Below, one piece after another: positions 3,267 through 5,486 of a stretch of 25,049 bases of DNA (positions within the stretch are counted from its first letter, which is position 1; every line of letters begins with the position of its first letter). Source of the stretch: a virus; IMG/VR virus record IMGVR_UViG_3300044641_007970, positions 1 to 25,049 of that record. One strand, written 5' to 3'. The notes under the pieces were generated by a model, which worked only from the letters and a program-made list of their open reading frames with translations, was not told the DNA's origin and ran no database searches. The position numbers and the translations under genes were made by a program.

Positions 3267-3274
3267 TATTTATT
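3267..3274 (-). promoter_or_regulatory. Late-promoter-like octamer 5 nt before ATG
   Basis: AATAAATA on the minus strand, then exactly 5 nt (ATTAT), then the ATG at 3261. With T4 late spacing, transcription would start at the A of the ATG. No Shine-Dalgarno sequence is present. Confidence 0.5.
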
Positions 3275-4652
3275 AGAACATGGCGATAAATGGCATGGGT
3301 TCAATGAAATTATCATCTCTATCTGTAATTTGTTGTTCCAGTTCTGGATGATAATTTTTCAGTATCTGACTCATTCTTATAATCAACAACAATGCCAGCA
3401 CCAAATCATCAGTTTCTCCATATTTGGCTGCAAAACTAGCACCATGTGATATAAAACTCTTCAGTTCACTTATCAAATTTGAGCTATGGATACGAATACG
3501 GTCAGTTTCCACTAGATTTTTTAATTTGGCACAAGCAGCAATTTTGGTCTTATTGGTTGTCGTAAAACCTTTGCGGTATCTGCGAGTTTGCCCTGCACGA
3601 GCTGGTTCACTTAGAAAAACTCCTGGGATATTTTCTTCACCAATTTCACTAATGGAAACCAGAGCTGCTTCGCCCAGTGTGTTGTTTTCCACGCTGTAAT
3701 ATACGTTATTAACACCCACCACATCGCTACATGTCTTTACTATTTCTTTGAGTACTCCGATCTGTTTTTGTATTGGAGTTCGATTGTTTTGCCATTCAGC
3801 AACCTGAATCATAGTGGGAACTTCAAAGACTTCAATGGCAGATTGATCGCCACCAGTGCCCAAGCTGGGGTCCAATGCTACCAAATATACACGATTGGGT
3901 TCAGGATTCTTATACCAGCGCACCTGGCCTTGTTTGTTAATAATCTCAGAACTGGTTAGTTCACGTAATTTCAAACTGCTGATTAATGATTCATCAGCAA
4001 TCACAAAATCACATTCGTGCTCACGTCGAAATCTCTCTTCACCAATTCTGCCCAGTTCCTCAGCTTTCCAGCGTTCATCGCGATCCGGATGTTCGTTCCA
4101 ATAACTACGAAATGCGCGAAATCCATTGATTCCCAGCTCTGTGGGATTTCCCCAGTCGTCGGTGCATCGGTTGGCCTGTTTCCATATAGTTGCAAATTGA
4201 TCCTCATCACTGTTGGGGGTGCTGGTTATCAGAGCCTTACCACCAGTGCTCAGCGTGGGTGAAATAGAAACCCAAAACTCTCTGGCAATAGAGGGTCTAA
4301 CGAACGCGAATTCGTCCAAGTACAAGCAATTGTGCGCATTTATGTCATTGGCTATAAAACTGTGAACATCCTCTACGTTCACCAAATCACTTACTTCTTG
4401 TGTGCCAATATATTCTTTAGAAATACATTTCTCAAAACCATTACATGTTTGGATCTGCTCGCCTATCACAATATCCTGATACTGTATCCAATCATTACGA
4501 TCTCTGGAGAAAAACATATGATCACTGGTACATTCCACCCATGTGTTTTCCAACTGTAATCGGTATGTTTCTTTTTCCCAGAGTGTGATGCCGGAAAAAT
4601 CCTTAAAACCATCAGTAGTTAAAACTTCAAATCTTGTATTTTCTACTTCCAT
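3273..4652 (-). CDS. 17: Terminase large subunit, C-terminal part with N-terminal intein C fragment
   Basis: This 459-aa precursor has two parts. Residues 1-108 are a split-intein C fragment. Residues 109-459 are the rest of T4 gp17-like TerL. The extein begins exactly at Walker B ([10 protein letters not shown]113 and E114), followed by the ATPase motif ITSTPN (about 142-147). The RNase H-like nuclease has D261 ([14 protein letters not shown]), E322 (YYSVENN) and D415/D416 ([11 protein letters not shown]). All catalytic acids are present, so the protein looks functional rather than decayed. It must be joined to the product of 4884-5486 to give a complete enzyme of about 520 aa, which pumps DNA into the head and cuts concatemers. 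The ATG at 4652 is preceded by AGAAGGG and AGAGG, and the start overlaps the end of the small middle ORF. Confidence 0.9.
4329..4652 (-). other. Intein C fragment (IntC, 108 aa) in TerL
   Basis: It carries intein block B ([11 protein letters not shown]45, then DIVIGEQI), block F ([14 protein letters not shown]) and block G (His107-Asn108 followed by Cys+1). The opening, with [18 protein letters not shown], is the same style as the AceL-TerL IntC. Block B lies in this half, so the split falls between blocks A and B rather than at the usual endonuclease site. No endonuclease domain is present inside. Confidence 0.9.
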
Positions 4653-4870
4653 ATCCTCTTATATACCCTTCTGGAATTTCTTGACCTTTTTGGAGCAATT
4701 TTTTTTTCACCAGTTTGCGGATTATGCACATAGTAACAGCCTTTGTTTGCAGGAGTTCTGCCTTTTGCACGTTCCGACATTAGTTTTTTAGTATCAGTTG
4801 ATCGTTTTGATCCTCGATTTTTTTCAACAGTTTTCCTAATTTTTTCCGGATTCCTGTTGACTTCGAGCAT
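4627..4870 (-). pseudogene. Remnant of homing-endonuclease DNA-binding tail between the two intein halves, frameshifted
   Basis: The ATG at 4870 opens a 75-aa frame ending at 4643. It has a NUMOD3-like helix (KRSTDTKKLMSERAKGRTP) and then ANKGCYYVHNPQTGEKK, a pattern common in the C-terminal half of phage GIY-YIG and HNH endonucleases. After an A9 tract (T9 on the plus strand, 4699-4707), skipping one A gives [18 protein letters not shown] and a stop at 4627-4629. That is the expected family ending (IPEG...RG). The intact product would be about 80 aa and has no catalytic domain. The frameshift may be real decay, slippage on A9, or a sequencing error. It starts 13 nt after the IntN stop and overlaps the IntC start. 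Confidence 0.7.
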
Positions 4871-4883
4871 GTAATTTTTCTTT

Positions 4884-5486
4884 CTACCTTTGTTGGATGA
4901 GTTCGCTTATAGTTTTTTGTGAAATTTCTCCAGTTATTTTATCTCTTACAGTTACTATTGTATTTTTTGTACTAAGACACGTGATACTCATACCACGCCC
5001 AGTTGTTTCAGTGGTGGTCTGTGCTACTATTCTGGAACCGTTTTCAAATTCTATACTGCCTTTGTTATAGTTTACCACACCAGCGCGAATAAAATCCGGC
5101 GTGGATTCATAAGCATACCGAATTCTTTGCATGATTTCCTGAGCGCCCAGATATTTGTGAGCAGCTATCAGAATAGTACTGTCTGGTACAAACATACCAT
5201 ACCACAGCAAATAACCAGCCGCTGTGGTTGATTTTCCTGTCTGTCTGGGCAGTAGAGCAATTGAAAACCTATAGTTATGATAGGTATGCAGCAAACGAAG
5301 CTGATAATCATAGGGTTGATATTGCGTTTTACCCCGGGTGGGATGCTGAATGAAAAAATAATTGCTCATGAAATGCATGGGTCCGGTTTCTGGGTCCATG
5401 CATTTCACCAATTCAGCAATCTGATGCTCATCCCAATTTTGCATCTTATAGGGTTTTTTGATTAGGTTAACATCGGTTTTCGCCAT
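4884..5486 (-). CDS. 17: Terminase large subunit, N-terminal part ending in intein N fragment
   Basis: This 200-aa precursor uses the ATG at 5486 (MAKTDVNLIKKPYK). An upstream in-frame start at 5597 would add 37 unrelated residues and run into the divergent HNH gene. Residues 1-169 are the TerL N-terminal ATPase region: the adenine-binding region with YDYQLRLL, Walker A RQTGKST (81-87), and TTTETTGRGMSIT just before the junction. Residues 170-200 are the intein N fragment, followed by a TAG stop. The protein lacks Walker B and the nuclease, so it is inactive alone and should be spliced in trans to the product of 3273-4652. The ATG lies 5 nt after an AGTAAATA octamer, without a Shine-Dalgarno sequence. 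Confidence 0.9.
   Translation of the reverse strand: MAKTDVNLIKKPYKMQNWDEHQIAELVKCMDPETGPMHFMSNYFFIQHPTRGKTQYQPYDYQLRLLHTYHNYRFSIALLPRQTGKSTTAAGYLLWYGMFVPDSTILIAAHKYLGAQEIMQRIRYAYESTPDFIRAGVVNYNKGSIEFENGSRIVAQTTTETTGRGMSITCLSTKNTIVTVRDKITGEISQKTISELIQQR
4887..4979 (-). other. Intein N fragment (IntN, 31 aa) in TerL
   Basis: Cys1 (codon 4977-4979) starts intein block A: CLSTKNTIVTVRDKITGEI, then SQKTISELIQQR and a stop codon. Only block A is present. At 31 residues it is much shorter than the roughly 100-residue IntN of DnaE-type split inteins, and close to the 25-residue IntN of AceL-TerL. Confidence 0.88.

Follow-up and report, generated by a model that had tools for sequence, protein, structure and literature searches.

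The large terminase gene (terL) in the window, by which we mean the whole 25,049-base viral contig fragment analyzed here, is very probably a fractured gene whose two products are rejoined by trans-splicing of a class 1 split intein. The first-pass annotation had read an atypical split TerL intein at this locus, with which the motifs, the profile matches, the predicted fold, the empty-site relatives, and the intact endonuclease of a same-site relative (L121) all agree. As these are joined by exact junctions, a full set of catalytic residues, a second contig, and the unlinked terL halves of Campylobacter fletcherviruses, we regard trans-splicing as the best explanation of the locus.

In the mechanism that we propose, the halves of a class 1 intein that is cut unusually near its N-terminus would be spread over the two terL products, and the short N-terminal fragment (IntN) would dock into a pre-formed C-terminal fragment (IntC). 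The rebuilt intein would cut itself out by means of Cys1, Cys+1, and Asn108, would join the N-extein (ExtN) to the C-extein (ExtC) at SIT/CLY, and would thereby restore Walker B in a TerL of 520 aa. A GIY-YIG homing endonuclease gene, whose catalytic domain was later lost, would have kept the two parts separate. We infer that IntN and IntC associate, that splicing follows the class 1 steps, and that packaging needs it; because TerL is essential, a TerL made only in two pieces would, if true, make packaging depend on trans-splicing, and such a dependence is testable.

Organization of the split terL gene

Genes for the tail tube, tail sheath, head closure, and TerL are part of the window's content (Pfam, PHROG), and our inventory of terL is limited to this fragment. 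Both terL genes and all their features lie on the minus strand. The 5′ gene (4884-5486; PHROG TerL, 1.7e-49; Pfam Terminase_6N, 3e-6) encodes the 169-aa ExtN and the 31-aa IntN followed by a stop, with an ATG at 5486 that agrees with the start in relatives and a TAG at 4886-4884. ExtN (4980-5486), which covers the ATPase domain as far as TTGRGMSIT, aligns end to end with the uninterrupted TerL of viral relatives at ~70-74% identity and includes Walker A (RQTGKST, 5226-5246, with K85 as computed on the joined protein). IntN, identified by HMM match, carries block A with Cys1 and occupies 4887-4979 (CLSTKNTIVTVRDKITGEISQKTISELIQQR).

The 3′ gene (3273-4652; PHROG TerL, 7.7e-83) encodes IntC and ExtC, 459 aa in all plus a stop. 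IntC (4329-4652), delimited by HMM, AF2, and Foldseek, begins with its own ATG and runs for 108 aa to INAHN (His107-Asn108), directly before Cys+1 (4328-4326). Cys+1 opens the CLYLDEF stretch (4308-4328) that contains Walker B, D174/E175 in joined-protein numbering, and the aligned ExtC (3273-4328, 351 aa, starting CLYLDEFAF) supplies the rest of the ATPase domain and the nuclease domain, with 62-68% identity to uninterrupted viral TerL and 52% to that of PA5oct-group phages. The two minus-strand genes of the first-pass annotation, one reaching TTGRGMSIT and the other resuming at CLYLDEFAF, were exact on coordinates, and its 31-aa IntN with a stop and own-ATG 108-aa IntC ending in His-Asn before Cys+1 were confirmed. 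Its statement that the Walker motifs and nuclease acids are kept also stands: K85, D174/E175, and the nuclease residues D322, E383, and D476/D477 are all present in the 520-aa joined protein, the last three being the residues listed earlier as D261, E322, and D415/D416, which had been counted in the 459-aa second gene.

The locus recurs in a second IMG/VR contig (L003), which agrees with the window in 6460 of 6470 bases (10 differences) and has IntN, IntC, and both exteins 100% identical; on this agreement a sequencing or assembly artefact was rejected.

IntN and IntC share one frame, with an insert of 651 nt, a gap of 231 nt, and 8 in-frame stops from Cys1 to Cys+1. The shared frame and the 651-nt insert could suit an interruption that is removed at the level of RNA or translation, by a group I intron, bypassing, or readthrough, and the terL of a related Campylobacter phage has been described with an 'intron' bearing an endonuclease and an intein (PMC3322345). 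We consider such removal extremely unlikely, as it would have to deal with the 8 in-frame stops and leaves the intein motifs on both sides of the gap to be explained, and Rfam lends it no support: no match in the window reached the gathering score, and the chance-level matches included none that was credible in 4200-5100. On this Rfam result an RNA element, such as a group I intron, was rejected.

Other endonuclease-like genes were noticed in the window. An HNH endonuclease gene (5531-6094, plus strand; Pfam HNH, 2e-13) lies immediately upstream of terL and is read from the other strand. An ORF at 20190-21197 (minus strand) has the motif DHIFSI...GH..NLR and resembles by eye an endonuclease-like ORF of contig L081 (WHIDHMFSI...GHSANLR); it is possibly a free-standing homing endonuclease, without a clear Pfam match. 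A 512-aa ORF at 14218-15756 (plus strand), where an AT-rich segment with switched strand separates tail genes, also looks endonuclease-like by eye, and Pfam gave only weak, unrelated matches for it.

Motifs, profiles, and fold of the intein

Block A is present as CLSTKNTIVTV at 4979, block B (T-x-x-H) as T42-S-D-H45 in IntC, and block G as H107-N108 followed by Cys+1, with Cys1 and the block B Thr and His invariant across the family alignment. Because the Pfam intein model scored the window under its cut-off, we used custom profile HMMs built from 12 same-site relatives, T4-like TerL inteins, and other phage TerL inteins, with the window left out. IntN ranked first among 702 six-frame segments of the window (E=4.5e-7; next segment, 0.04-0.06) and still reached 7e-4 once its closest relative was dropped, and IntC was top-ranked among the window frames (E=1.5e-31). 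The comparison with related TerL inteins that had been suggested for both halves thus gave a match for each.

The AF2 model of IntC (pLDDT 89) has the HINT fold, and its best PDB matches are inteins, in line with the intein fold expected earlier. By Foldseek the best match is the VidaL intein (6vgv; E=5e-7, TM 0.81, 24% identity in the structural alignment), and the top 45 PDB structure matches with E<0.001 are inteins or intein-like, the engineered Cat among them. Experimentally proven inteins resemble the window intein weakly by sequence: a PDB sequence search with IntC returned Cat, a DnaE intein, and VidaL as the best matches, all weak, and even CatC, the best of them (E=0.0013), has low overall similarity. 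A single-protein IntC search for close relatives retrieved the twin contig only. Blocks A, B, and G, the HINT fold of IntC, and the precise in-frame insertion together are those of a class 1 intein.

The same features bear on whether TerL could act as two non-covalently assembled pieces, with the intein parts as inert remnants. NrdA of phage Aeh1, which an endonuclease has split and which functions in pieces, offers a precedent (cited in PMC10448857), but in the window the cut falls inside the Walker B strand, 31 and 108 extra residues would be left hanging on the two pieces, and every splicing residue is kept, including the intein-specific Cys+1. We therefore judge a two-piece TerL to be improbable and favor rejoining by trans-splicing.

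Empty sites in relatives

In ~75 of the closest TerL relatives among viral contigs, ExtN and ExtC are adjacent, with a gap of 0, at exactly the codon where the window carries its intein. Where the junction was readable, the +1 residue was Leu in 75 cases and Cys in 0, so Cys+1 occurs only with the intein allele. Such a pairing is what a functional intein requires, and it would fit an element that arrived together with flanking sequence.

An endonuclease relic between the halves

The gap holds a 75-aa ORF (4643-4870, minus strand) that is a relic of a GIY-YIG/NUMOD3 homing endonuclease without the catalytic domain. It shares 56% identity over 57 aa with the C-terminal part of the 310-aa L121 endonuclease (E=4e-20) and has a weak NUMOD3 match. 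Against phage records the relic found no match, and against viral contigs it found three, one of them the twin contig. Its last 19 residues continue in another frame (4627-4686, minus strand), match GEVIPEGYRKGYGRRKK, which ends the L121 endonuclease, and hold the IntC start. At both loci the IntC ATG lies within the terminal codons of the endonuclease (TATGGAAGTAGAAAA in the window, TATGGTCGTAGAAAA in L121), and the relic tail may have been retained because it carries the start codon of the 3′ gene. The relic contains 7 stops in the intein frame against 8.2 expected under neutrality from synonymous-codon shuffles, and this neutral rate indicates that the intein is truly split. Between the halves the window keeps only a relic of the endonuclease gene, which is intact in the close relative L121; the earlier reading of a split intein stood, and the relic that links the locus to the 'fractured gene' arrangement had been overlooked.

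That the gap endonuclease is itself broken would sit well with a locus that is simply a dead or artefactual broken terL. We give this hardly any credence, as the same arrangement recurs in the second contig, the ATPase, nuclease, and splicing residues are all intact, and other families show the same split. A terL rejoined by trans-splicing remains our preferred reading, and the other families are described below.

Same-site relatives and overprinted endonucleases

A search with the junction DNA pattern HN-C-x-Y-x-D-E gave 29 matches, from which two intein-free TerLs (L094, L095) and a protein other than TerL (L097) were set aside, and it revealed twelve further TerL families that carry an intein at exactly the window's codon. 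Two of the relatives have continuous mini-inteins of 435 and 519 nt (L100 and L101). The split intein of L121 has a full 310-aa GIY-YIG/NUMOD3 gene between its halves; IntN and IntC of L121 are 61% and 57% identical to those of the window, and its exteins 62/57%, so that the intein halves keep pace with the exteins in conservation. In L105, L109, L115, and L116, IntN is fused to a GIY-YIG endonuclease and IntC is separate, and in L096 several ORFs lie between the halves.

Four others (L119, L117, L112, and L114) encode TerL, intein, and TerL in single ORFs of 913, 921, at least 689, and 989 codons, counted from stop to stop, and inside each of them another frame encodes an HNH/NUMOD3 endonuclease. 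Continuous ORFs with such out-of-frame genes lie on the plus strand in L117 (1534-4296), L106 (497-3271), L119 (1764-4502), and L114 (214-3180), and on the minus strand in L112. Across the overprinted endonucleases the intein frame contains 0 stops in every case against 12.8-14.1 expected (none of 5,000 synonymous-codon shuffles was free of stops); the overprinting always uses the same relative frame, and the third frame has no stop depletion. Of the 12 differences between L106 and L117 within the endonuclease, 8 are synonymous and 4 are not when read in the endonuclease's own frame, as against 1 and 11 when read in that of the intein. The intein differs at 19 positions in 1,113 nt, against 51 in 500 nt for the adjacent extein. 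This pattern fits an endonuclease that is mobile and under selection, lying in an intein frame on which the sole demand is that it remain open. In the AF2 model of the L117 intein, residues 1-30 and 270-371 are confident and 31-269 form a disordered linker, with the break coinciding with the end of the window IntN. L105 (6295-9096) shows the same kind of overprinting with another type of endonuclease: its intein at Walker A (QVGK/CFFINT...SHN/TSTL) has a PD-(D/E)XK-like (DUF559) endonuclease overprinted in another frame, and a second, split intein follows at Walker B.

The overprinted state itself is well supported. HNH endonucleases inserted out of frame have been described in phage methylases, in that case without an intein; in ShiLan, as in L119, L117, L112, and L114, the endonuclease is overprinted in a stop-free host ORF, but ShiLan has no detectable splicing domain, whereas in these relatives the overprinted gene is flanked by complete halves of an intein (PMC11855218). 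Endonuclease domains in inteins all share one conserved insertion site, according to the abstract of PMC6801210. Inteins combined with out-of-frame endonucleases were not found in the literature searched, the coverage of which was incomplete, and the overprinted same-site relatives look like a novel variation on intein architecture that would offer an origin for atypical splits. Such an origin would begin with an endonuclease placed out of frame after residue ~31; stops would gather in the frame of the intein, IntC would come to be launched from a start codon within the tail of the endonuclease, and the protein would end up cut there. We see about an even chance that atypical splits arose in this way and that the site forms a graded series, from continuous mini-inteins through out-of-frame HNH overprints and splits with a free or IntN-fused endonuclease to a split with a dead endonuclease, as in the window. 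The same-site relatives thereby give a concrete, testable account of the origin of atypical split inteins.

TerL inteins 3 codons further on, at LLY/CDEF, were also observed in L038 (3662-5041), L081 (2069-3448), and L083 (2986-5070; Salicola phage SCTP-2). Their IntC ends not in Asn but in Gln (HQ or SQ), a rare C-terminal splicing residue. The terL of L081 (5-3448) apparently has two inteins, one near Walker A (SHN/TTSAAG) that is clipped by the contig start and the split one at LLY/CDEF, which has a 291-aa endonuclease-like ORF between its halves.

Split terminases in cultured phages

Split TerL inteins at DE/CAF were found in T4-like coliphages and related phages (kaaroe, Thanatos-2, PspYZU05); a 2024 paper states that no inteins had been reported in coliphages (PMC11162368). 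In coliphage kaaroe, which infects E. coli K-12 (L084, 745-3856), the N-half is fused to a TnsA-like endonuclease and annotated as a hypothetical protein, and several of the records seen label one TerL half in this way.

Campylobacter fletcherviruses encode the two halves of TerL on opposite strands, at a distance of ~27 kb. Their N-half closes with DE, an IntN of 31 aa, and a stop; the C-half consists of IntC and then CAFIDK. In NCTC12673 (NC_015464) the halves at 46030-46152 (minus strand) and 72897-73193 (plus strand) are unannotated, the locus tags gp054 and gp081 being missing, and endonuclease genes lie near both; L177 and L088 belong here too, and a comparable separation is seen among the other fletchervirus isolates listed. 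As the halves are unlinked and such phages are propagated, the two have to come together as proteins, which leaves their joining, or at least their assembly, to the protein level, and this separation also argues against removal of the interruption from RNA. Campylobacter phage CP21 (L087, 118-4404) has three TerL inteins, at Walker A, split at RGFSC/CNIIVVDE, and at DE/CAYL.

Comparison with known systems

Fractured genes, as Dassa et al. reportedly described them in 2009, combine split inteins with a homing endonuclease between the halves, and two gene halves, a split intein, and an endonuclease gene between them are likewise seen in L121. The window differs in that its endonuclease is a frameshifted C-terminal tail; the L121 enzyme is a GIY-YIG endonuclease with NUMOD3. 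The first-pass annotation had placed the insertion at Walker B; the site can be refined to 4 codons before the Asp-Glu pair, while those T4-like coliphages that were checked have theirs directly behind it (DE/CAF). The AceL insertion, judged by its CEFL flank, probably also lies directly behind the pair.

Mycobacteriophage TerL inteins (sites a-g) likewise lie in the ATPase domain, with one site in Walker B (TerL1-e), and five tested inteins spliced there; they differ from the window in having been tested as inserts in a single-chain reporter and in coming from other terminase families (PMC5050341). The closest counterparts are AceL-TerL (25+104 aa) and GOS-TerL (37+115 aa), which have in common with the window a TerL host, a short IntN, a long IntC, and Cys+1, and the likeness in size to AceL-TerL that had been noted at first holds for the 31+108 aa of the window against the published table, GOS-TerL included (PMC11766414). 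New split inteins with a short IntN are sought as protein-labelling tools. By the place of its split, its long IntC, and its TerL host, the window element belongs to the AceL/GOS-TerL kind, set apart by its site and by its dead endonuclease.
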